Part shown: piece by piece, positions 11,317 through 57,655 of the stretch
How the letters are laid out: the number at the start of each line of letters is the position of its first letter
How positions within the stretch are numbered: the first letter of the stretch is position 1
NCBI RefSeq assembly: GCF_014287355.1
Contig: NZ_JACOPE010000001.1
Location: 3,100,001-3,164,000, forward strand
Reading direction: 5' to 3'
DNA: 64,000 bases
From: Ruminococcus hominis
GTDB lineage: Bacteria > Bacillota > Clostridia > Lachnospirales > Lachnospiraceae
Translations under genes and position numbers: made by a program
Notes under the pieces: model-generated
What the model was told of the DNA's origin: nothing
What the model saw: only the letters and a program-made list of their open reading frames with translations
Databases searched by the model: none

Positions 11317-11345
11317 ATTATATTATTTTGCACGATTTTTGTCAA
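11317..11345 (-). promoter_or_regulatory. Consensus promoter of the hypB operon
   Basis: Minus strand: TTGACA (11345-11340), 17 bp, TATAAT (11322-11317). Both hexamers and the spacing are perfect sigma-A consensus, implying a strong promoter that must be held down by a repressor. Confidence 0.85.
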
Positions 11346-45054: not shown

Positions 45055-45083
45055 AGTATACTTCGTCTTACTTTTTCTGTCAA
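45055..45083 (-). promoter_or_regulatory. Promoter of the GT2-GT2-DUF2304 unit
   Basis: Minus strand: TTGACA (45083-45078), 17 bp, TATACT (45060-45055), 38 bp upstream of the GT2 start. Near-perfect sigma-A consensus. Confidence 0.82.
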
Positions 45084-45126
45084 TTATAGCCATTTTTCTA
45101 TTAATACTATTTTCTTTCAGAATGTT

Positions 45127-45161
45127 AAAGCGGCATGGCAAAATCTATACCACACCGCTTT
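45127..45161 (-). terminator. Hairpin at the end of the dlt-like operon
   Basis: Twelve-base arms 45127-45138 and 45150-45161; the two mismatches on the plus strand become G-U pairs in minus-strand RNA, which tells that the minus strand is the functional one. It follows the carrier protein gene. The T-run is weak. Confidence 0.6.
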
Positions 45162-45177
45162 TGTAAAACTTATGTCC

Positions 45178-45402
45178 TTATTTCTGAAGTTTATTAATCA
45201 ATGCCATAATTGCCTCTGGCGAATCAAAATTTTCAGGAACAACCTCGCCTACTGGGATTGTCACATCAAATTCATCTGAGATATCCGAAATCAGATTTAA
45301 AATTTTAAGTGAATCCAAATCTCCACTCTCCACCAAATCTGTTCTTCCTTCAAACTGTACTCCCGGTACTAAATCGCTTAAAATTTCCAATAATGTTTCC
45401 AT
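45178..45402 (-). CDS. Acyl/D-alanyl carrier protein (DltC-like)
   Basis: 74 residues, the size of a stand-alone carrier protein. The phosphopantetheine attachment serine lies in ESGDLDSLKILNLI (about residue 34), matching the D-S-L motif. In the classic dlt system the carrier is charged with D-alanine by DltA and unloaded by the DltB/DltD membrane pair. Here the adenylating enzyme, MBOAT and SGNH-like protein are in the same operon. Because the substrate is not proven, the name dltC is left open. Confidence 0.85.
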   Translation of the reverse strand: METLLEILSDLVPGVQFEGRTDLVESGDLDSLKILNLISDISDEFDVTIPVGEVVPENFDSPEAIMALINKLQK

Positions 45403-45452: not shown

Positions 45453-46433
45453 CTAATTTAATGCTTCGTCACCAAATACAATATCACCAAACACTTTTGA
45501 AAATGCTTTGGCGCTATCACCATTCATATGCCCATCATAATCTACATAATTTGCCAGCTCATGATTATAACTTTTATAATATTCTCTGTTGAAGTTATAA
45601 TATTCTACACCCTTTTCACGAAAATACTCTGAAAAATAATCCCATGCATCACGATAACTTTCCTCTTCTTGAACTAACATTGTTGCTGCTAAAGGCATTG
45701 TCGTCGCAATAAACTCAATATCATTCTCTTTACATAATCGAATCAACTTATCCAAATATTCCATATTAGTTGCTTTCACTTCATCCTTTGAAAACAAGGT
45801 TGGTGAATATGATGGGAAATTCTCTATCGCCACCGGATATTTCTCAATAAATCCATTTTCATGATATTCCTGTGCTTGTCCTTTCAAATATGATACATCA
45901 TAATTATTTGTCATTTTCTGATAAACTGTATCCTTTATTTTAGAAAGCTCATATTGCAATGAATACTCATGAAATGCAAATAAAGGTGAACGGAAATCAC
46001 AATCTAACATTGTATTTGCATAATATTCTGCTTTTGTAATAGACATTGGAAATTCATGATAAAATAATAAATAATTATTTCCTTTTTCTTTTTCCGTTGT
46101 AAAATATCCCGGAGACAATTCAAATATAATTGTTTTAGGGTGTTGTTTTTCAATAACAAGCTTTGTCAAATAATATGCATCAACTGGATATTCTCCTCCA
46201 ACACACAAATTATGTCCTGTCCTTTTTGTTCCTTCCAGCATACTATCCGGATCTAAATCTGACATTCCATTCGATGTTCCTAGTATAACAACATCTTTCT
46301 GCTCATTTGTAACTGTATGAATATCATTTCTTACAAATGTACATGGATACAATAAAATATCCATTGCTTTGATCACTAATGCACAAATCAACAGACATAT
46401 AACTAGTTTAATTCCTTTTTTAAAACTGTGCAT
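45453..46433 (-). CDS. SGNH-type surface protein, DltD-like
   Basis: 326 residues. One N-terminal membrane helix (about 7-27) anchors an external domain. The block DVVILGTSNGMSDLDPDSM resembles the catalytic serine block of SGNH/DltD/AlgJ-type proteins, and YVDYDGHMNGDSAKAFSKVFG supplies the D-x-H pair near the end. DltD and AlgJ-like partners work with MBOAT proteins to place acyl groups on surface polymers. Its ATG overlaps the end of the MBOAT gene by 14 bases, a sign of tight coupling. Confidence 0.72.
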   Translation of the reverse strand: MHSFKKGIKLVICLLICALVIKAMDILLYPCTFVRNDIHTVTNEQKDVVILGTSNGMSDLDPDSMLEGTKRTGHNLCVGGEYPVDAYYLTKLVIEKQHPKTIIFELSPGYFTTEKEKGNNYLLFYHEFPMSITKAEYYANTMLDCDFRSPLFAFHEYSLQYELSKIKDTVYQKMTNNYDVSYLKGQAQEYHENGFIEKYPVAIENFPSYSPTLFSKDEVKATNMEYLDKLIRLCKENDIEFIATTMPLAATMLVQEEESYRDAWDYFSEYFREKGVEYYNFNREYYKSYNHELANYVDYDGHMNGDSAKAFSKVFGDIVFGDEALN

Positions 46434-47946
46434 AGATGAACCCCCTAGCTACTGACATTGGACTAAACAGCGGAATACTGATAAGCAAAAGAATACATAT
46501 TAGAAATTCCAAAGCTATTGGCGTTTTCGCTGCTGCTTCTTCCATATTTATGCCTTTTTCTTTTAATACACTCACAATAAACCAAATAACACATCCTATA
46601 AATAATGTTAATAATGCATACGGTGTATATTCTACTCCGAGTTTTCCGGATGATATCATTAAAAATTGTGATGGTTGAAAACTCGTAACAGAATATTTCA
46701 TCATTTTCAACGCTTCTCCAACTGAGCTAACACAATCGAAATATTGTCCAAGATTAAACAGTATAAACGTCCTGAGTATCATAAACAGATGATATCCTTT
46801 GCTTTGATCTTTAATGTGTAGTTTCGTTTTCCATACTTTATATGTGTCTGCCATGAATCCACTTGTTGCAATAATTACTCCGTTATAAAAACCCCATCCT
46901 ATATTATTCCAGCTAGGACCATGCCATAAACCAACAAGTACAAATACTATCAAATCTGAAACAGCAATCGTCACGAATCTTCCTTTTTTTCGTCCCCATT
47001 TGACTTTCGCCTTTTTTTGAAGTTTGCACATTGCTTTTGACAAAGTTAGTGGATAAAACACATAATCTTTCATCCATGTTCCAAGTGATATATGCCATCT
47101 TCTCCAAAAGTCACTAATCGAAACAGAAAACAATGGCTGACGAAAGTTTTCATCTAGTCGAATTCCAAACATTGCAGCTACGCCTAATACAATATCTATA
47201 CCTCCTGCGAAATCACCATACAGCTCTATTGTGTATAGCAACACACCAAATACCGCAATTCCTGAATATTGCTCTGGATTAGAAAAAATTGCAATTCGAT
47301 ATACCGAAGCCCATTCTGCTACAATCATCTTTTTGAACAATCCCCATACAATTCTTTCAACACCATACTTTATCTGATGTAACTCAAATTTATGTGAGCT
47401 TGTCAATTGGTCCGCAAGCCTTCCATATCTTCCTATTGGTCCTTGTACAAGTTGTGGGAAGAATGAAACAAATAATGCATATTTACCCAAATTTGTTTCT
47501 GCTTCTGCTCTCCCCCAATATACATCTAACAAATATCCCAGCGTTTGGAATGTGTAATAAGAAATTCCAAGTGGTAAAATCATATGAAACAGATTGATAT
47601 GACTATTTGTTATTGCATTAATATTTAGAATCAAAAAATTGGAATATTTCAAAAATGCTAACATTCCTAAGTCCAATACTATTCCAAATATAACAATTCT
47701 TTTTTTCTTTTTTACATCTACTTTTTCTTCTACTTGAATATTATCAATATGTTTTATCCATAAAGCACAACCATATGTCACAAGAGTTGAAAATAGTAGA
47801 AAAAATACTGCCGGTATGCTAATTATCATATAATAACAATAACTGCATATTAATAAAACAACCCATTGTAAACGCTTTGGGACTATATAATAAATACATA
47901 GTCCCATTGCGGTAAACAGGAAAAACAAATTCGATGTTAACGACAT
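46420..47946 (-). CDS. MBOAT family O-acyltransferase (DltB-like)
   Basis: 508 residues with about eleven helices. MBOAT features are LPLGISYYTFQTLGYLLDVYWG, FPQLVQGPIGRYGRLADQL, SISDFWRRWHISLGTWMKDYVFYPL and the catalytic histidine in VLVGLWHGPSWNNIGWGFYNG. DltB transfers D-alanine from its carrier protein across the membrane; the relatives AlgI and PatA use acetate. The carrier protein and adenylating enzyme in the same operon favour an amino-acid donor. It is 19 bp downstream of the lipoprotein gene. Confidence 0.88.
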   Translation of the reverse strand: MSLTSNLFFLFTAMGLCIYYIVPKRLQWVVLLICSYCYYMIISIPAVFFLLFSTLVTYGCALWIKHIDNIQVEEKVDVKKKKRIVIFGIVLDLGMLAFLKYSNFLILNINAITNSHINLFHMILPLGISYYTFQTLGYLLDVYWGRAEAETNLGKYALFVSFFPQLVQGPIGRYGRLADQLTSSHKFELHQIKYGVERIVWGLFKKMIVAEWASVYRIAIFSNPEQYSGIAVFGVLLYTIELYGDFAGGIDIVLGVAAMFGIRLDENFRQPLFSVSISDFWRRWHISLGTWMKDYVFYPLTLSKAMCKLQKKAKVKWGRKKGRFVTIAVSDLIVFVLVGLWHGPSWNNIGWGFYNGVIIATSGFMADTYKVWKTKLHIKDQSKGYHLFMILRTFILFNLGQYFDCVSSVGEALKMMKYSVTSFQPSQFLMISSGKLGVEYTPYALLTLFIGCVIWFIVSVLKEKGINMEEAAAKTPIALEFLICILLLISIPLFSPMSVARGFIYAQF

Positions 47947-47965: not shown

Positions 47966-48772
47966 TTAATATGTCAATCCATCTCCAATGCAGCCGTCAT
48001 CAGAAGATGATGTGTCTGCTGATGGTGTTGGTGCTGGTGCTGGTGTCGGTTCTGTATATGTTTGTGAACCCCAATCTGATGATTCTGTATATGTTGATTG
48101 ATTCGTTTGCTCCTGAGCTGCAGCAGCCTCTGCCTGTGCTGCGGCTTCTGCTTGAGCCTGTGCTGCGGCCTCTGCCTGTGCCTGTGCTGCGGCTTCTGCT
48201 TCCGCTTTTGCTTTTTCATCTTGCTCTTTTTGAGCTTTTGTAGCCAATTCGGCATCTAATGTACTAACCTCTGCTCCATCTTTCTCATATGTCAGATAAG
48301 CCACACCATCCTGAATTTTAATTTCTCCTTTTTCCATATCATCAAATGGAAATGCATGCAATTCAACAATTGTCTTATCTGCCAATGTTAATTGTATAGT
48401 ATATTCTACCGGCAATACTTTTCCACTTTCTGTCGCGGTTTCCTTAGCAGCATCTTCTGATGGCTTATAATACAAAACTCTTGTCTCATCTTTCTTGTAA
48501 GTATCTGCCTCTTTCAAAAAACTATCTGGATAATTTTCCTCTGAAGAAGATTTTACACTAACAGAAACAATATCCTGACCTGTTTCATTTTTAAGAGTTA
48601 CTTTATAAGCATCTTTATCCTCTTCTCCTATTGTTTTGTATTCTTCTTTTTCTGTTTTTGTTGTAGCAGTTGTCTCTTTTTTTGTATCTGTTGTATTTTT
48701 ATTTCCACATCCTGTAACTGCTGTAATTGCTAACATTCCTACTAAAAATATTGTTAATACTTTACGTTTCAT
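47966..48772 (-). CDS. Lipoprotein with Ala/Gln-rich helical segment, inside the dlt-like operon
   Basis: 268 residues. A lipoprotein signal peptide ends in the lipobox ITAVTGC (cysteine 22). A beta-rich domain of about 120 residues follows (YKVTLKNETGQDIVSVSVKSS resembles an immunoglobulin-like strand pattern). Then comes an A/Q/E repeat of about 45 residues (units of AQAQAEAA) likely to form a rigid helix, and a Ser/Thr/Pro tail (TPAPAPTPSAD) that suggests wall passage. The ending CIGDGLTY is short and conserved-looking. Family not recognised. Gaps of 19 and 31 bp to its neighbours indicate co-transcription with the acylation genes. Confidence 0.65.
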   Translation of the reverse strand: MKRKVLTIFLVGMLAITAVTGCGNKNTTDTKKETTATTKTEKEEYKTIGEEDKDAYKVTLKNETGQDIVSVSVKSSSEENYPDSFLKEADTYKKDETRVLYYKPSEDAAKETATESGKVLPVEYTIQLTLADKTIVELHAFPFDDMEKGEIKIQDGVAYLTYEKDGAEVSTLDAELATKAQKEQDEKAKAEAEAAAQAQAEAAAQAQAEAAAQAEAAAAQEQTNQSTYTESSDWGSQTYTEPTPAPAPTPSADTSSSDDGCIGDGLTY

Positions 48773-48803: not shown

Positions 48804-51428
48804 TTAACTTTCATAGTGATAATTTGTGTATACCCATGTACCGGAAGTCCTGTATCTGAACTGATATCCATTACGCCCCGTCTCATATTGAAAATCTGTA
48901 TCATATACATAGGTTACTCCATTGATATCAATTTCTACCCATGCATGATCAACCATTCCACCTCCAGCTCTTGGAACATAACCATATACATATCTTGCAT
49001 TATAGCCCAGTCCCTTTGCTAACTGATAAAAAGTTGCTGCATAAGTACGACAATCTCCTATTTGCTGCTCTAATCCGTACAGTGCAAACCACTGTGGATT
49101 TGTATAACCAGTTCCTGGATTATTTCCAAGCGTACGGTATTTGATATTATTAACGCACCACATAAAACAACTATACAAATTCCGTCCTACCTGATTATAT
49201 ACATTTTGGATTCCATTATTAATACGCATCTGTTGTGGTGTCATCGTTATATAATAATTACTATTACTTCCTGGTACCATTGCTCCCTTCGGAACAATTT
49301 TCACTTGAATAGCCTGCAATTTGTTTCCAAGTTTTGTAGTTCCGGCTTCCTGACCATTCTTTGCCCAGCCAAGCCATCCATAATTTGACACATGAGTGCG
49401 GTAATAGATATCTGCATATTGTGCCAACTCACCCGTCAAACGAATTTGAACCGCTTCTGCCTGATTTTTTCCGTCTCCAGCTATTTCTCCATTATTTTTC
49501 CAGTCCATCCAGCCAACATTACTTACATGCAAACGATATTCAATTGTTCCATTAAATACATTTTTTCCCGTAGAATCAGATGTACTCATAGTCAGCTGCT
49601 GAATTGCTTTATTTTCTCCTGTTGTTCCTGCAGTCTGCCCATTTGTTTTTGTAGTCTGCCAACCAGATTTTTCAACATTTGCCGCAAAATTAATTTCACC
49701 TATATTTTCTGTTGCCAGATAGCTCCTTGCTGTTGTATCTGGTACGTTTGTATCATTTTTTTCATAAAGTTTGATTTCAATAGCCTCTACTCCCGCATTG
49801 TAGCCGACAGTTCCAGCTGTCTCTCCATTTTTCGTCCAGCCAAGCCAGCCAAATCTTGCACTATGAACGCGATAATAGATATCATATTTTTCTTCCAGTT
49901 CACCTGACAAACGAACTTTTATGGCCTCGACTTTTTTGTTTTTCCCTGTTGTTCCGGATGTCTCTCCATCCGCAACTTCATCCTGCCAGCCAATATCCTG
50001 TACATGGGTCTGATAAATAACAGACCCATTCAGCCCATTTTGTCTTCCCCAGTCAGTAACTTTAATGTTTAGAGCTTCTACACTCAAATTTCTTCCTGTC
50101 GTTCCGGCTGTTTTTCCATCATACACATTTGATTGCCAACCAATATTTTGTACATGGGCTTTATAAATAATTGCGCCTAAATTATCTTGCGAAATATAAC
50201 TTCTGCTGCTTTGTTCTGGTTTATCTGTTGCATCTTTTGCATATAATTTTACTTCAATTGCCTGTGCTCCCAAGTTAAGTCCTATAGTACCTGCCTGTTC
50301 ACCATTTTTTGCCCAGCCTAACCAACCATACTCTGCTGAATGAACACGATAATAGATATCATATGCTTGTGCCAACTCTCCTGTCAGGCTTATTTTTAAC
50401 GCTTCTATTTTCTTATTTCTTCCTGTTGTTCCGGCTGTACCCCAATCAGAAACTGCATTCTGCCAACCAATATCCTGTACATGGGCTTCGTAACTAATAG
50501 AGCCTGACATATTTTTTCTTCCGGCATTTGTCACTTTTAACTGAAGTGCTTCCAAATTCAGGTTTCTCCCAGTTGTCCCGGCTGTTGCTCCATCATAAAC
50601 TTTATCTTGCCAACCAATGTTTTGTACATGAGTCTTATACATTAACAAACCACGTGTCTCTTCTGACAAAAAGCTGCATTCTGTCTGCGCCGGCTTGTCC
50701 TCTGCAGTTTTATTATATAATTTAATTTCAATTGCCTGTACAGCATATGCATATCCAGCAGTTCCGGCGTCTTCACCATTCTTCGCCCAGCCAAGCCAAC
50801 CAACATTTGTAGCATGAACACGATAATATATGTCATACTGTTCTTTTAAATCTCCTGTAAGATTCATTCTAATTGCTTCTATCGGAAGATTCTTTTCTTC
50901 AATACCCGCTGTTTCTCCATCTTTTACAGCGTCCTGCCAGCCAATATTTTGCACATGTGCACTGTACTCAACCCCACCTGTCACATTTGTTTGATTATCT
51001 ATTTTTATCTGCAGTGCTCTCATTGCACGATTCTGCCCTGTCGTTCCGGCCATTTCTCCATTTTGTTTTTCTTCCTGCCAGAATCCACCATGTAAATATG
51101 CACGATATTTTAATTGAATCTGCTCGCCATTTTCTGCAACAGCCTCTGGTTCTTTCTGTATATCCTGAACAGTTGTTGGTGCTACGTTTTCTTGTACATC
51201 CTCCTGCTCTAATATTTCCTGTTGTTTTTCCTCTTTAATTGTACTGTCTTCACTACTATTTTCAGAAGCTTGTGACTCACTTTCTCCATTATTTTCAGTC
51301 TGATCAATAGAACCATTTTCTTGTGTTTGTACAATTTCGTTTTCCTCTGCAAGCACTGTTAATGGGCTTGACATCAACATAATAGAACTGAGTAGAAGTA
51401 CTCCCACACTTTTTATATTTTTCTTCAT
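48804..51428 (-). CDS. Secreted ChW-repeat protein with C-terminal transglutaminase-like domain
   Basis: 874 residues. Signal peptide at 1-27 (VGVLLLSSIMLMSSPLTVLA), then an acidic E/Q linker. Twelve ChW repeats in four triplets span about 105-725, closely matching those of the VanW protein at 23.5-26.3 kb. The C-terminal 140 residues carry a transglutaminase-like core with cysteine in QIGDCRTYAATFYQLAKGLG, histidine in VDHAWVEI and aspartate in YDTDFQYETG. Such domains act as cysteine proteases or crosslinking enzymes at the cell surface; which one is unknown. It sits between the adenylating enzyme (39 bp) and the lipoprotein (31 bp). Confidence 0.9.
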   Translation of the reverse strand: MKKNIKSVGVLLLSSIMLMSSPLTVLAEENEIVQTQENGSIDQTENNGESESQASENSSEDSTIKEEKQQEILEQEDVQENVAPTTVQDIQKEPEAVAENGEQIQLKYRAYLHGGFWQEEKQNGEMAGTTGQNRAMRALQIKIDNQTNVTGGVEYSAHVQNIGWQDAVKDGETAGIEEKNLPIEAIRMNLTGDLKEQYDIYYRVHATNVGWLGWAKNGEDAGTAGYAYAVQAIEIKLYNKTAEDKPAQTECSFLSEETRGLLMYKTHVQNIGWQDKVYDGATAGTTGRNLNLEALQLKVTNAGRKNMSGSISYEAHVQDIGWQNAVSDWGTAGTTGRNKKIEALKISLTGELAQAYDIYYRVHSAEYGWLGWAKNGEQAGTIGLNLGAQAIEVKLYAKDATDKPEQSSRSYISQDNLGAIIYKAHVQNIGWQSNVYDGKTAGTTGRNLSVEALNIKVTDWGRQNGLNGSVIYQTHVQDIGWQDEVADGETSGTTGKNKKVEAIKVRLSGELEEKYDIYYRVHSARFGWLGWTKNGETAGTVGYNAGVEAIEIKLYEKNDTNVPDTTARSYLATENIGEINFAANVEKSGWQTTKTNGQTAGTTGENKAIQQLTMSTSDSTGKNVFNGTIEYRLHVSNVGWMDWKNNGEIAGDGKNQAEAVQIRLTGELAQYADIYYRTHVSNYGWLGWAKNGQEAGTTKLGNKLQAIQVKIVPKGAMVPGSNSNYYITMTPQQMRINNGIQNVYNQVGRNLYSCFMWCVNNIKYRTLGNNPGTGYTNPQWFALYGLEQQIGDCRTYAATFYQLAKGLGYNARYVYGYVPRAGGGMVDHAWVEIDINGVTYVYDTDFQYETGRNGYQFRYRTSGTWVYTNYHYES

Positions 51429-51467: not shown

Positions 51468-53003
51468 CTATACTAATTCTTTCAGTTTTGCCCTGTCTAT
51501 TTTTCCATTCGCATTATGTGGCATTACTTTCATATATACAACTTTTCCAGGAATCATATAATGAGGAACTCTGGTTGCCAATGTGTCTGTAATTTTTTTT
51601 GTTTCCATTTCTATCCCATCATAAAAGAATACTATTTTTTTTCTTTTCGTATTATACATACATGCACAATCACGAATTCCTTCTATTGCATTCCCGGCAG
51701 ATTCAATCTCACCTAACTCAATGCGGTATCCCATATGTTTAATTTGAAAGTCTTTTCTGGAAATATAAATCAGGTTACCAGTTTCATCATATCGGACTAA
51801 ATCTCCAGTATGATATATGCGTTCTGGATAACGTTGATGTAACGGATTCTGCACAAATGCCAACTTTGTTCTTTCTGGATTATTATAGTATCCTAATGCC
51901 AGACAAGAGCCTCTCATGCATAATTCTCCAACTTCACCATACTCAACTTCTTTACCTTCTTCGCTCAAAAGAAGTGCCTGCGAATTAGCTATTGGAACAC
52001 CTATTGGTAATGGCTGTCCCTCTGGCTCATTCCCTTTTCTTATATATGCCGTACACACAAACGTTTCTGTTGGTCCATACAGGTTTGCATACACAGCGTC
52101 TGGTAAATATTTGACCCAGTAATCTAATTGTTTTCTTTGTAATACCTCTCCTGCAAACATAATTTGTTTTAAATATTGAGGAACTACTACATCAAATGTC
52201 TGAAGATTTGCAACAATCGCCATTGCGGATGGAACCCATAAAAATGTAGATATCCTTTTTTCATTCATATATTCAATTAATCGGACGGGAAATCCAAAAA
52301 AACTTTGTGGTATAATAACCATTTTAGCGCCAAAATAAATTGCTCCATAAATATCATGTATTGATACATCAAAATAAAATGGTGCTTGATTTCCAAAAAC
52401 TGATGTACTATCAATTTCAAAGTTCTGCTCTAACCATTGCATATAATTTATTACAACTCTATGATTAAGTAAAACCCCCTTTGGCACACCTGTCGAACCA
52501 CTTGTAAATAACACATATAACGGATCTAGTTCTGTCATATCCATCCTTATATTTCCAAGCATATCTTTATCGATTTCCTGTTCTGATATATCTTCCCAAA
52601 GAACAATCTGACTATTTTTAGCAAAGCTTTCTGCAAGTTCTTTATGTTCTTTATCCGTAACAATAATTTTCGGCAAAAGTACATCCATGATAATTTGTAT
52701 GCGTTCAATTGGCATTTTCACATCCAACGGACAGTAAAAATTACCACTATATAAAACACCAAAAAAAGACACGATAGCTTTTACTGACTTATCCATAAAT
52801 ACAGCAATAGGCTCTCTATGTCTTCCAAGTTTCATTGCCAGCGACGTACCAATTCTTTGTGCTGTTTCTTCTACCTGCTTAAATGTCATACTGACATTTT
52901 TATCTTCATACACTTCCTTATCTGGAAAATATATTGCAGAATTTTCTAAATACTCTAATACGTTACTTGCATTTTTCTTATTTTCAAATCCAACTACTTC
53001 CAC
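51468..53003 (-). CDS. Amino-acid adenylating enzyme (DltA-like), first gene of the dlt-like operon
   Basis: 511 residues from the GTG at 53003, which follows GGGAGG; a longer frame to 53057 would start before the likely transcription start site and is rejected. Adenylation core motifs are LYVLFTSGSTGVPKGVLLNH (A3), ANLYGPTETFVCT (A5), YHTGDLVRYDETGNLIYISRKDFQIK (A7-A8; shown in part) and NANGKIDRAKL (A10). Its length fits stand-alone DltA rather than a peptide synthetase module. It would activate D-alanine or another small acid and load the carrier protein at 45.2 kb. Confidence 0.87.
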   Translation of the reverse strand: MEVVGFENKKNASNVLEYLENSAIYFPDKEVYEDKNVSMTFKQVEETAQRIGTSLAMKLGRHREPIAVFMDKSVKAIVSFFGVLYSGNFYCPLDVKMPIERIQIIMDVLLPKIIVTDKEHKELAESFAKNSQIVLWEDISEQEIDKDMLGNIRMDMTELDPLYVLFTSGSTGVPKGVLLNHRVVINYMQWLEQNFEIDSTSVFGNQAPFYFDVSIHDIYGAIYFGAKMVIIPQSFFGFPVRLIEYMNEKRISTFLWVPSAMAIVANLQTFDVVVPQYLKQIMFAGEVLQRKQLDYWVKYLPDAVYANLYGPTETFVCTAYIRKGNEPEGQPLPIGVPIANSQALLLSEEGKEVEYGEVGELCMRGSCLALGYYNNPERTKLAFVQNPLHQRYPERIYHTGDLVRYDETGNLIYISRKDFQIKHMGYRIELGEIESAGNAIEGIRDCACMYNTKRKKIVFFYDGIEMETKKITDTLATRVPHYMIPGKVVYMKVMPHNANGKIDRAKLKELV

Positions 53004-53060
53004 TGAAGTTTTTCCTCCCTCTTGTAATTTCTTGTATATAAATACAAATATACACATATC

Positions 53061-53091
53061 ATTATACCCCCCCCCGGCATTTTTTTGTCAA
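53061..53091 (-). promoter_or_regulatory. Promoter of the dlt-like operon with a G9 tract in its spacer
   Basis: Minus strand: TTGACA (53091-53086), then 19 bases, then TATAAT (53066-53061). The spacer is AAAAAATGCC followed by nine G residues (53075-53067). Both hexamers are perfect, but the spacer is two longer than the optimum of 17, so losing two G residues would give an ideal promoter. This is the arrangement of known slipped-strand phase-variable promoters. Confidence 0.8.
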
Positions 53092-53216
53092 TCCCTTCTA
53101 CATTAGAATTTACACCAGAAAATTTTCCTTCTGAAAACAAAATTTAGAATTTTATTGTAAGTTCATTAAAATCTAAGTAGGTTTACTAAATAAATTATTA
53201 TGTACCTGCTATTTCA

Positions 53217-53225
53217 TGTTATAAT
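53217..53225 (+). promoter_or_regulatory. Extended -10 promoter of the flippase-like gene
   Basis: TGTTATAAT: a TGn extension plus perfect TATAAT, 37 bp before the ATG at 53262. No convincing -35. The 120 bp between this and the divergent dlt-like promoter is AT-rich without other recognised sites. Confidence 0.6.
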
Positions 53226-53261
53226 AAGATTCACTTATTTAATAAAGAACAGGGGTAAATT

Positions 53262-54521
53262 ATGTTTAAGAAATTTTGGTTGATAAAAGAAGATGACATT
53301 GGAAAACAAAGTGTATTTTGGAACATGATGTCCAGCGGTTTGAACTCTATTGTATCAATGCTATTGCTCTGGGTCGTAACTTTGCTGAATGGTGTATCCG
53401 ATGCCGGGATATTTTCTTTGGGATTTTCTACTTCACAGATGATGTTGACAATTGGTAATTATGGAATGCGAAACTATCAGGCAACTGATGTGACAAATAA
53501 ATATTCCATAAAAGTTTATGAAGCTTCCCGAATCGTAACAAATATCATTATGATGGTATCTGTATTAGGCTTTGTATGGTTTGAGGGTTATTACTTCGAA
53601 AAGGCACTAATTACTATTCTGCTGTGTTTACTCAAAGTTACAGATGCATTTGATGATGTTTATGGTGGATATTATCAGGTGAAAGGCCGACTGGATATTG
53701 CCGGAAAAATCATGAGCATTCGCATTGGCGCATATGTTCTTGGTTTTATACTTACACTTATTTTTACACACAACCTGATTCTAAGTTGTTTGATTTCCAT
53801 TATAATTTCAAGTATCATATTAATTGTACTTATTCATTCAACGAAAATTATTATTCCTTTAGAAAATCCTTCTTTTCAATGGAATAAAATTTGGAATCTG
53901 TTAACAGAATGTTTCCCATTGTGTATTAGTGCTTTTTTACTTATCTACATGGGTAATGCACCAAAATATGCAATTGATGCTTACCTTACTGCAAAAGATC
54001 AGGCTTACTACACTTATCTATTCATGCCTTGCTTTGTGACCAATTTATTTGTAGGTTTTGCTTTGCAGCCTTTATTAGTTCGTTTATCTAAATCCTGGGT
54101 CCATAAAGAATATCGCAAATTCATAAAATTATGCGGTTTAATTTTTGCCGGAGCACTGTTCATCTCTGCATTGATTATCATCGCCGGAGCAATCCTTGGA
54201 TGTCCAATATTATCCATTGTATTTGGTGTCTCCTTATCATCCTATACGCAAGTATTGGTGGTATTATTGATTGGCGGTGCTTTCTTTGCTTTTGCAGTTA
54301 TTGAACAAGTTATATTGACTGTAATGCGCAGACAAGTATATTTATTAGTCGGATTCGGAATTGCCAGTGCTATCGCAATGCTTATCTCCGGAATCCTCGT
54401 TAAGAAGTTCGCTTTATTAGGTGCTGCTTATGCATATACTATTTCTGCCGGAACATTATTTCTTGTATTAGCATTTATGATTTTTATATTTTTATATCTA
54501 AAAAAAAAGAAAAACAAATAA
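53262..54521 (+). CDS. MOP-superfamily (Wzx/MurJ-like) membrane protein
   Basis: 419 residues with about twelve hydrophobic helices and a lysine-rich C-terminus. The beginning (VFWNMMSSGLNSIVSMLLLWVVT) and the regularly spaced helices resemble polysaccharide flippases and related MOP transporters. The call is by hydropathy pattern and locus context, not by a diagnostic motif. It is transcribed away from the dlt-like operon and ends at a strong bidirectional terminator, so it is probably a single gene. It could flip a lipid-linked unit for the polymer system. Confidence 0.68.
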   Translation: MFKKFWLIKEDDIGKQSVFWNMMSSGLNSIVSMLLLWVVTLLNGVSDAGIFSLGFSTSQMMLTIGNYGMRNYQATDVTNKYSIKVYEASRIVTNIIMMVSVLGFVWFEGYYFEKALITILLCLLKVTDAFDDVYGGYYQVKGRLDIAGKIMSIRIGAYVLGFILTLIFTHNLILSCLISIIISSIILIVLIHSTKIIIPLENPSFQWNKIWNLLTECFPLCISAFLLIYMGNAPKYAIDAYLTAKDQAYYTYLFMPCFVTNLFVGFALQPLLVRLSKSWVHKEYRKFIKLCGLIFAGALFISALIIIAGAILGCPILSIVFGVSLSSYTQVLVVLLIGGAFFAFAVIEQVILTVMRRQVYLLVGFGIASAIAMLISGILVKKFALLGAAYAYTISAGTLFLVLAFMIFIFLYLKKKKNK

Positions 54522-54565: not shown

Positions 54566-57500
54566 TTATTTTTTATAAAATGCTTTTCCGATATCTTCTG
54601 GCGCTTTTCCACCTTTTTCTACTAATTGAATACGAATTGCCTCTACCTGACGTGCATATCCTTCACTTCCTGCTTTTTCTCCATTCTTTGCCCAACCAAG
54701 CCAGCCAAATTCACTGGAATGTACTTGATAATATACATCGTATTTTTCAGCCATTTCACCTGTAAGCTCAATACATATTGCTTCCATTTCTTTGTTTCTG
54801 CCTACAGTTCCACTTATAGCACCATTTGACACGTAATTTTGCCAGCCGATATCTTGAATATGACTTTTATACTTAATTTCGCCTGAATATTCTGGATATT
54901 GCAAATTTATCCTGATTGCTTCTACCTGCTTATTTTGCCCTGTTGTTCCTGCCAATTCTCCATTTTGTACTGCATCTTGCCATCCAATATCTTGCACATG
55001 CGTGCTATATTCTATATTTGTACTTTTCTTTTTAAACGAACTCTGTTCATTTTCTATTGTTGGCGTTCCTTTTGGCACAATTAACATCTGAATTGCTTCC
55101 ACTTTAAGAGCATAGTTCATTGTTCCGGCTGTCTCTCCATTTTTTGCCCAACCGAGCCACCCCAAATCTTGTACATGCACCCGATAATATATATCATAAT
55201 TATCTTTCTGATTTCCTGTAAGCTCTATTTCAATTGCTTCCATTCGACGGTTCTGCCCTGTTGTTCCCGCAATTTCACCGTCCTTATGATAATTTTGCCA
55301 GCCAGTATCCTGCAAATATGAACGATATTTCACTCCTAACAAATTAGATTTTACATTCAAAATCATTGCTTCTATTTTTTTATTCTGACCAGTTGTTCCT
55401 GCTATCTTGCTTCCCAGCACTTCGTTTTGCCATCCAACATCCTGTACATGTGCAGAATATCCAATTTTGACTGTATTAATCTGATATGGTGTCTCTGTTC
55501 CACCTGGTGCTGCTGATCCTTTTGGCAATAATGCAATCTGAACCGCCTGTAATGCGTAATTATATCCTTGCGTTCCGGCTAATTCTCCATTTTTTGCCCA
55601 ATCCATCCAGCCAATATTCGTCACATGCACCCTATAGTAAAGATCATAATTTGATGCAGCATCGCCTGTCAGTTTTAATTTAATTGCCTCTAGATTTTTT
55701 GCTTGTCCAACAGTTCCTCCTACCTCTCCATTAGACACGCTATCCATCCAACCAATATCCTGTGCATGCACCTGGTATTCAACCCCTAAATTTGCAACAC
55801 CCGAAATATTTATTTTCATTGCCTCCATTGGAAGATTTTTCCCTGTGGTTCCCATCATCTGTCCATTTTTAGCGCAATCCATCCAACCAATCTCACGTAC
55901 ATGTGCACTGTATTCTATTGCTCCTGCCAGTTCCGTTGGTACCGCTATTGCTCCACTACCTAATGAATTATCTGGTTTATTTTCATTTCCACCTGATTCT
56001 CCTGAGCCACCTGAATTTCCGGAACCTGTTAAGACATTCTTCACGTACCCCGAACTAACATATGCATACATACTAGAAAAATCATAATTTCCTGCATCCG
56101 AAACAGTGGTACGATTTGTTGTTAACGCAGCATCACTTTGTACTTTATAAAAATTGCCTTGGCTTGAATCTAAAATAATAAATGCCTGATTTGAATAATT
56201 TTTTGTTGTGTGAATTACAGTAGATGAGCCATTCGCCTCTGTCCGAACATTTAAATCTGTATGTTCATTTCCTATCACGTCTTTTATCCCTATGGTATAA
56301 CGATTACTGTCTTTATTCCCATATATTTTATCAATCATCCAGGCAACATTGGCATTCTTTTCTCCCCAGTATGGATCTGACGCATATCTTACATTCATCC
56401 CGCTTCCTTTATTACCGAGATATCCCCCTGAATATACCCAGTTTTTAGGGTTTAGATATCTTTTTGACATATATGTCTCTGTAAATGTTTTAATACATGC
56501 ATCAATACTTTCATATGCGTTTGCACTCTGTCCCGGAGCTGCATCCACAGCATTTAAGCCAAACAGATTGTTTTTCTCCTGTGCAATGCTACTTTTTCCC
56601 CACGCACTTTCATTTGCTGCAATTCCAACTGCAATTAATGCATTTACTCCGTATGTGTTTTGATAATTTTTAAACATATCCCCTGTATTACTCATTTTAT
56701 ATCCAGCTGCTTTACTATTTATAATTTCATTTAATTGAGCTGCTGAATATACTGTTTTGCTTCGTAAAGGAAGATATTGATAATAATTATAATATGGTGA
56801 AGAACTGTTAATCGAATTTGTTCTTACTCCTGCCTTATAATCATCCAGCATATTTGAAAATCTGTCTCTTGTATAGAAATAATGTCCGTCATAACTATAA
56901 TATTGTACACCTTCTGACAAATACGATGGTGCCGGTCCGTTATCCAATGATGTGATATAATTTCCTTGTGTAATATTTGTCGTAATATTATGTATTAACC
57001 GACCTGCACTGACAGCATAATAACTGACAGATGATGCACTGTTCACACTTACAACCTGTACATCATTTGCATCAACTAGCCCTGTAACTCCTGATAACAA
57101 AAATTTCACTTTTCCATTTTCTGTCCCAAGATATGCTGCATCAGCACCATATGCCCCACAAGTATACCCGGCGTTACCGGTTCCAACTTCGGTGTATGTT
57201 GTTACCACTGCTCCTTTTGTATTAAAGTTAACTATCTTTCCATCATTACTCAATAAATCAATCTCAAGCAGTCCCGACTCATCCGGTGCTTCCGAAACAT
57301 TACCTTCTTCATCCATACTCGTTATCGTTTCGTCTTCTCGTACTTCAAACTCTGCTGTGTTGGGTTCTCCTGAATTTGTAAATTCACCAGTAATATCTTC
57401 TGTTTCTTTTGTTGCCTCGTTTTCCGTCTTTTCCAAGCTACTATCCTCAGTTGCTTGGATTGATTCTTGATCAAAGTCAACCGCACCAACATCTATTCCA

Positions 57501-57568
57501 CTGGCCATAACAGTTAGTATCAACATACATATGCTCAACATCCAACTTATTCTTCTTTTGTGTTTCAT
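54566..57568 (-). CDS. Secreted glucosaminidase (GH73-like) with nine ChW repeats
   Basis: 1000 residues from the ATG at 57568 (GGAGGAGGAAG upstream). A signal peptide (about 1-30) and acidic linker come first. A glucosaminidase domain lies at about 280-420: YGVNALIAVGIAANESAWGKSS with the catalytic glutamate, NNLFGLNAVDAAP and a later PYWGEKNANVAWMIDKIYG. A probable SH3-like segment (LNVRTEANGSSTVIHTT) and a Gly/Ser linker follow. Nine ChW repeats in three triplets fill the C-terminal 430 residues. It should cut N-acetylglucosaminyl bonds in peptidoglycan. Head-first, ChW-last layout is the same as in the GH25 protein. Confidence 0.9.
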   Translation of the reverse strand: MKHKRRISWMLSICMLILTVMASGIDVGAVDFDQESIQATEDSSLEKTENEATKETEDITGEFTNSGEPNTAEFEVREDETITSMDEEGNVSEAPDESGLLEIDLLSNDGKIVNFNTKGAVVTTYTEVGTGNAGYTCGAYGADAAYLGTENGKVKFLLSGVTGLVDANDVQVVSVNSASSVSYYAVSAGRLIHNITTNITQGNYITSLDNGPAPSYLSEGVQYYSYDGHYFYTRDRFSNMLDDYKAGVRTNSINSSSPYYNYYQYLPLRSKTVYSAAQLNEIINSKAAGYKMSNTGDMFKNYQNTYGVNALIAVGIAANESAWGKSSIAQEKNNLFGLNAVDAAPGQSANAYESIDACIKTFTETYMSKRYLNPKNWVYSGGYLGNKGSGMNVRYASDPYWGEKNANVAWMIDKIYGNKDSNRYTIGIKDVIGNEHTDLNVRTEANGSSTVIHTTKNYSNQAFIILDSSQGNFYKVQSDAALTTNRTTVSDAGNYDFSSMYAYVSSGYVKNVLTGSGNSGGSGESGGNENKPDNSLGSGAIAVPTELAGAIEYSAHVREIGWMDCAKNGQMMGTTGKNLPMEAMKINISGVANLGVEYQVHAQDIGWMDSVSNGEVGGTVGQAKNLEAIKLKLTGDAASNYDLYYRVHVTNIGWMDWAKNGELAGTQGYNYALQAVQIALLPKGSAAPGGTETPYQINTVKIGYSAHVQDVGWQNEVLGSKIAGTTGQNKKIEAMILNVKSNLLGVKYRSYLQDTGWQNYHKDGEIAGTTGQNRRMEAIEIELTGNQKDNYDIYYRVHVQDLGWLGWAKNGETAGTMNYALKVEAIQMLIVPKGTPTIENEQSSFKKKSTNIEYSTHVQDIGWQDAVQNGELAGTTGQNKQVEAIRINLQYPEYSGEIKYKSHIQDIGWQNYVSNGAISGTVGRNKEMEAICIELTGEMAEKYDVYYQVHSSEFGWLGWAKNGEKAGSEGYARQVEAIRIQLVEKGGKAPEDIGKAFYKK

Positions 57569-57655
57569 CAACTTCCTCCTCCCACTTTCCTACAATATTT
57601 ATTCTAATTCCCATCTTAACATAATTCAACTTTTTCGTCATCTGTAAAGATAGCA

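Follow-up and report, generated by a model that had tools for sequence, protein, structure and literature searches.

The locus discussed here is part of the window, by which we mean the whole 64,000-nucleotide stretch of DNA that was analyzed, which has a G+C content of 36%. Six genes lie in a row on its minus strand. The first one (51468-53003, GTG start) encodes a DltA-like adenylating enzyme (AMP-binding match, 1.3e-64), and it is followed by genes for a protein in which a domain search found 12 ChW stretches and a transglutaminase domain (48804-51428), a putative lipoprotein that matches no Pfam family and has a lipobox-like VTGC when read by eye (47966-48772), a DltB-like MBOAT acyltransferase (46420-47946), a DltD-like protein (45453-46433) and a DltC-like carrier protein with a PP-binding match (45178-45402). 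In gene order, the genes are separated by 39, 31 and 19 nt, a 14-nt overlap and 50 nt, and the carrier gene is followed by a gap of 160 nt; the gene order and the gaps of at most 50 bp described in the original prediction thus hold up to the carrier gene. A divergent gene (53262-54521), whose multi-membrane product is flippase-like by eye and has no Pfam or NCBIfam match, begins about 170 bp from the promoter described below, and the promoter region is flanked by genes for two large ChW-repeat proteins (54566-57571 and 48804-51428, with glucosaminidase and transglutaminase domains, respectively). The window's aspartate oxidase shares 86% identity with the enzyme of Dorea acetigenes, a value that no named match among the 120 listed exceeds, and 80% with one from an uncultured Mediterraneibacter, in agreement with a member of the Lachnospiraceae. 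The bacterium presumably lives in the gut.

An adenylating enzyme, an MBOAT protein, a DltD-like protein (the latter by a sub-cut-off DUF1574 match of 24 bits versus 29.1, with no NCBIfam match) and a carrier protein present together in one gene row are what the unit shares with the dlt operon, in which DltA-D are responsible for the D-alanylation of teichoic acid. Yet the genes are dlt-like by layout, not dlt, for two reasons. Firstly, the curated NCBIfam cut-offs are missed by the adenylating enzyme (DltA, 303.8 bits versus 559.85), the MBOAT protein (DltB, 163.3 versus 375) and the carrier protein (dltC, 26.3 versus 52.35). Secondly, Cys-269 of Bacillus cereus DltA selects D-alanine (PMC4176424), whereas the alignment places an alanine (IMFAGEVL) at that position in the adenylating enzyme; the amino-group-binding aspartate is conserved. 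The cysteine is present in both DltA-like comparators, L138 and L139, which come from records labelled as phage clones and are probably bacterial. These two, together with L141-L144, are INPHARED "UNVERIFIED" phage records encoding DltA-like enzymes, and they look like fragments of bacterial chromosomes. The unit also differs from the dlt operon by the two extra genes in between. An amino acid is a plausible substrate for the adenylating enzyme, whereas D-alanine as the substrate, and hence a change of charge, is not established by these features. The earlier proposal that the locus toggles the charge of a surface polymer presumes D-alanylation and is therefore weakened.

The unit probably consists of these six genes and ends at a 14-bp hairpin behind the carrier gene (45127-45161, minus strand; -22.2 kcal/mol, z -4.1, with 1 of 200 shuffles as stable). 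No T-run follows the hairpin, and it is not among the sites listed by the terminator scan, so that some read-through is possible. A separate promoter-like site on the same strand, TTGACA-17-TATACT (45055-45083), stands before the downstream glycan and export genes, which encode glycosyltransferases together with an ABC exporter similar to those for teichoic acid and galactan, with scores under the curated cut-offs of these families. The hairpin and this 17-nt site (45055-45161) mark a boundary between the genes for decoration and those for polymer export. The promoter at the head of the six genes would thus govern mainly the decoration unit, and the polymer genes would be served by a separate, fixed promoter.

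The promoter at the head of the unit was read directly on the minus strand. A -35 box of exact consensus, TTGACA (53086-53091, read from 53091 to 53086), is followed by a spacer of 19 nt (53067-53085) made up of AAAAAATGCC and nine consecutive Gs (G9, 53067-53075), and then by a -10 box of exact consensus, TATAAT (53061-53066, read from 53066 to 53061). All of this agrees with the original prediction. The tract is anchored by TTGACAAAAAAATGC and TATAATGATAT on its two sides, and the arrangement, a G/C homopolymer between recognizable -35 and -10 boxes, is that of promoters of the porA and tp0126 type. The distance from the -10 box to GTG 53003 is 57 nt, and a ribosome-binding site, GGGAGG (53014-53019), lies 10 nt before this GTG. 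An invertible promoter was considered and set aside, because the search for flanking inverted repeats within 52700-53600 gave only imperfect pairs (71-92%), the best of which were short and distant or did not flank the promoter.

How far this arrangement departs from chance depends on what is counted. The 64 kb contain 17 G or C runs of length 5, none of length 6-8, and one of length 9, which makes the putative slippage site the sole G/C run longer than 5 in the window. In 400 windows simulated with an order-3 Markov model, runs of at least nine G or C averaged 0.0525 per window and occurred in 21 of the 400, and G7 or longer between exact boxes occurred in none. A weaker measure does not single out the run by itself: three G7 words, overlaps counted, were found, whereas dinucleotide shuffles contain 1.96 on average, and 33 of 100 of them have three or more. 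Thus, the unusual thing is the place of the run.

The window also provides a norm with which the spacer can be compared. The count covered pairs of boxes that match the consensus at 11 or 12 of the 12 positions and lie 13-23 nt apart; there are 26 such pairs, seven of them intergenic. One of the seven, at 1612, has a spacer of 23 nt and no same-strand gene after it inside the window; the other six stand 38-63 nt before a same-strand gene. Among these six strong promoters, the spacer is 17 nt at 11345, 14934, 28372, 45083 and 62827, and 19 nt at 53091 alone. Since the other five all have 17 nt, the loss of two Gs would match the local norm exactly, and the 17-nt spacing that the original prediction took as optimal is the norm within the window itself. 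A 17-nt spacer has been described as optimal elsewhere (PMC9440211). In Escherichia coli promoters with consensus boxes, 17 nt is best and 18 nt close to it, 15-19 nt still give high expression, and longer spacers give clearly lower expression (PMC8695583). As expression is still high at 19 nt in that system, nine Gs may be an intermediate state and not the OFF state. Thus, the part of the original prediction according to which two lost Gs would lead to the 17-nt spacing stands, and the picture of 19 nt as an OFF state is weakened.

The closest relative of the adenylating enzyme, P0001, makes it possible to look at the same promoter in another strain. This protein, obtained from the ena source and representing a cluster of 206 sequences, is 98% identical to the enzyme, and it was called 25 residues longer than the 529-residue ORF that starts at ATG 53057. 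It begins MRISENCFLPVFGLTKKCGGGGYNDICIFVFIYKK, and its N-terminus, GLTKKC-GGGG-YND, indicates that it was annotated through its own promoter. GLTKKC is compatible with TTGACAAAAAAATGC and is what GGATTGACAAAAAAATGC of the window encodes, YND is encoded by the window's TATAATGAT, so that its Tyr-Asn is compatible with the -10 box, and the leader residues that follow YND are those of the window except for one Met that is replaced by Ile. This replaced residue corresponds to ATG 53057, the first ATG and the start preferred by the ORF finder. Since it is Ile in the nearest relative, and since GGGAGG lies 10 nt upstream of GTG 53003, ATG 53057 is probably not the real start of the adenylating enzyme and GTG 53003 is the likelier one, which would place the G run in a promoter spacer and not in the gene.

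Between these anchors P0001 has four Gly codons (GGN, 12 nt), where the window has a C and nine Gs (10 nt). Provided that both boxes are unchanged, with which the residues are compatible, the spacer of P0001 would therefore be 21 nt. Read from the protein of this one relative, the spacer length thus appears to differ between strains, 19 versus 21 nt, and the tract does not appear to be a constant run of nine Gs in all of them. The protein does not reveal the third base of any GGN codon. As the second C of TGCC has been lost, the strains differ by more than a simple gain of two Gs. It should be noted that the DNA above the -35 box of P0001 clearly differs from that of the window, that P0001 is the only one of the 120 homologues listed with a read-through of this kind, and that a search with its first 60 residues matched no sequence other than P0001 itself. 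The cluster of P0001 (206 sequences) is smaller than that of the aspartate oxidase, P0121 (468 sequences); by this crude comparison, the operon may be present in only part of the strains.

The relative bears on two other explanations of the 19-nt spacer. Homopolymers are error-prone, and the length of the tract could be an artefact of assembly or sequencing; P0001, a different sequence, has four Gly codons in the corresponding position, and for this reason an artefact is unlikely. Another explanation is a promoter of the MerR type, or one that depends on another activator, in which the spacer is fixed at 19 nt and untwisted by a protein. MerR promoters have spacers of 19-20 nt, and a 19-nt spacer between perfect boxes fits this pattern. 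On the other hand, the 31-bp core holds no perfect inverted repeat (arms of at least 4, gaps of 0-12), neither neighboring gene matches a regulator family, and the spacer of P0001 would be 21 nt. The missing dyad and the length difference in P0001 make this explanation improbable.

The start codons raise a further question, namely whether the tract acts on translation. ATG 53080, inside AAAAAAATGCC, lies directly before the tract and has GAAGGG upstream of it; if it were the start, the Gs would fall in codons 2-5. The distance from it to GTG 53003 is 77 nt at nine Gs, which is 2 modulo 3, so the enzyme would be in frame only at seven or ten Gs. Such a translational switch requires a promoter above 53091, where the minus-strand sites listed reach 9 of 12 matches (spacers of 16-18 nt scanned). 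Furthermore, the better ribosome-binding site is at GTG 53003, and the two exact boxes around the tract would be a coincidence. We therefore regard a switch of this kind as very improbable. As a separate observation, a 17-nt spacer, i.e., seven Gs, would coincide with an open frame from ATG 53080 into the adenylating enzyme.

A different kind of alternative accepts the promoter as real and regards the tract as drifting: the tract would be mutation-prone and differ between strains, spacers of 19-21 nt would be tolerated, and there would be no selected, reversible switch. Several observations are in line with drift. The difference between the strains consists of 2 nt plus a base change, and spacers of 15-19 nt are active with consensus boxes in E. 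coli (PMC8695583). In addition, matches to the enzyme occurred in 56 phage records and 2194 plasmid records, and of the five distant relatives fetched from these (37-44% identity), none has a G or C run of at least 6 in its locus, so that the tract is a feature of a lineage and not a conserved rule of such operons. However, drift would have to account for a presumably hypermutable run with a perfect box on either side. Poly-G and poly-C are less stable than poly-A and poly-T (PMC3899988), and they are generally under-represented in coding genes (PMC2831843). No other G/C run in the window exceeds 5, and G9 therefore looks maintained. We consider drift unlikely. A scan of genome contigs for the enzyme locus gave one distant locus only (L001, 27% identity).

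Similar promoters were sought in viruses and plasmids. A DNA search of phages and plasmids with the window sequence gave no match, and nothing was found when viral contigs were searched for the enzyme or for the 36-mer beginning with the -10 box. In IMG/VR, G8 before TATAAT (GGGGGGGGTATAAT) showed no enrichment over a scrambled box (GGGGGGGGTAATAT), with 63 stretches each among the matches listed. A -35-like hexamer (at most one mismatch, 14-24 nt upstream) accompanied 7 of the 62 scored sites versus 3 of 63 for the scrambled box. The full pattern, TTGACA..G7..TATAAT, occurred in nine stretches versus two with a scrambled -35 box and four with a scrambled -10 box, and all of these four are shadows of true TATAATAT sites. 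The excess thus concerns complete promoters and not the G runs in them, and it may reflect no more than the presence of promoters. In viral contig L006 (5051-5083), one of the nine full-pattern stretches reads TTGACA-N10-G11-TATAAT with a spacer of 21 nt, the same layout as that of the G-tract promoter in the window. It directly precedes a lone gene of 284 amino acids without a PHROG family, between the terminase and portal genes. When relatives of this gene were sought for variation of the tract, only the gene itself was found. Viral contig L004 (54% GC) contains TTGACA-N3-G11-TATAAT (2319-2344), with a spacer of 14 nt, before an ORF of 308 amino acids; slippage there would have to lengthen the run.

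Taken together, the observation of a nine-G tract between perfect promoter boxes is confirmed, and its first interpretation is supported in part. A slippage switch at the G9 promoter is likely, with the slippage and its effect on expression predicted from the sequence. In the form that we favor, to which we assign a probability of about 60%, the number of Gs between the perfect boxes would set the strength of a sigma-A-type promoter that drives the six-gene dlt-like unit, in the style of porA and tp0126. Replication slippage would change the length of the run by single bases. A strong state would correspond to seven or eight Gs (17 or 18 nt), an intermediate one to the nine Gs of the window's assembly (19 nt), and a weak one to the 21-nt spacer predicted for P0001. 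The unit probably serves to add an aminoacyl or similar group to a surface polymer, and its genes also include those for the ChW-transglutaminase protein and the lipoprotein. As the glycosyltransferase and export genes downstream are preceded by their own 17-nt promoter, which contains no run, the decoration would be switched and the backbone would not.

A broader reading would be that promoters with poly-G spacers are a slippage switch of the Clostridia and their prophages, and that the decoration module alone is switched here on a constant backbone, so that a clone keeps sub-populations with different surfaces. We regard this reading as possible, if doubtful. Promoter switches driven by slippage are known mainly from host-adapted pathogens. 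A clear case in the Lachnospiraceae would show the mechanism at work in a family of Firmicutes that is common in the gut, and the state of the switch could be read from existing metagenomes by counting Gs. If the decoration alone were switched, it would offer a simple handle on how the surface of a commensal varies towards antimicrobial peptides, phages or antibodies.

The comparison with known systems shows what may be new. In line with the original prediction, the open-licence literature, which includes few subscription papers or preprints, yielded no description of a slippage promoter in the Lachnospiraceae or before a dlt or dlt-like operon; for the pneumococcal dlt operon, frequent mutations have been reported, not a slippage promoter (PMC5361624). 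In Gardnerella, which like the Lachnospiraceae lies outside the Proteobacteria, G/C runs of at least 8 stand upstream of genes in about 70% of cases and some are variable; it belongs to another phylum, and in the text available the tracts are not resolved to promoter spacers (PMC11287997). Of the two precedents originally cited, the fimbrial genes of Bordetella (fim2, fim3 and fimX) share a C/G homopolymer in the promoter, and fimX transcript is 3.8-fold lower in C8 than in C7 strains; the model there turns on how far an activator site lies from the -10 box, not on a perfect -35 box, and they are therefore a looser precedent (PMC1891110). The other, the classic case of Neisseria porA, holds as a system of the same kind, with a G run between the boxes in which one base alters transcription (PMC7864442, PMC3899988, PMC2791445); it differs in being a porin gene of a Gram-negative pathogen for which strain and expression data exist. 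The closest working precedent is tp0126 of Treponema pallidum, which encodes an OmpW homologue. Its poly-G also lies between the -35 and -10 boxes, activity is best at a total spacing of 17 nt, and the original annotation of the gene was too long, a fault that P0001 seems to share; the limits of the tp0126 gene were set anew using the poly-G and the start site (PMC7864442). There, a single outer-membrane protein gene of a spirochaete pathogen is involved and expression was measured, whereas here the evidence is genomic and the promoter probably serves a six-gene unit in a member of the Lachnospiraceae. Thus, the comparison of the mechanism with porA or tp0126 is likely right in kind, and what would be new is the host and the cargo.
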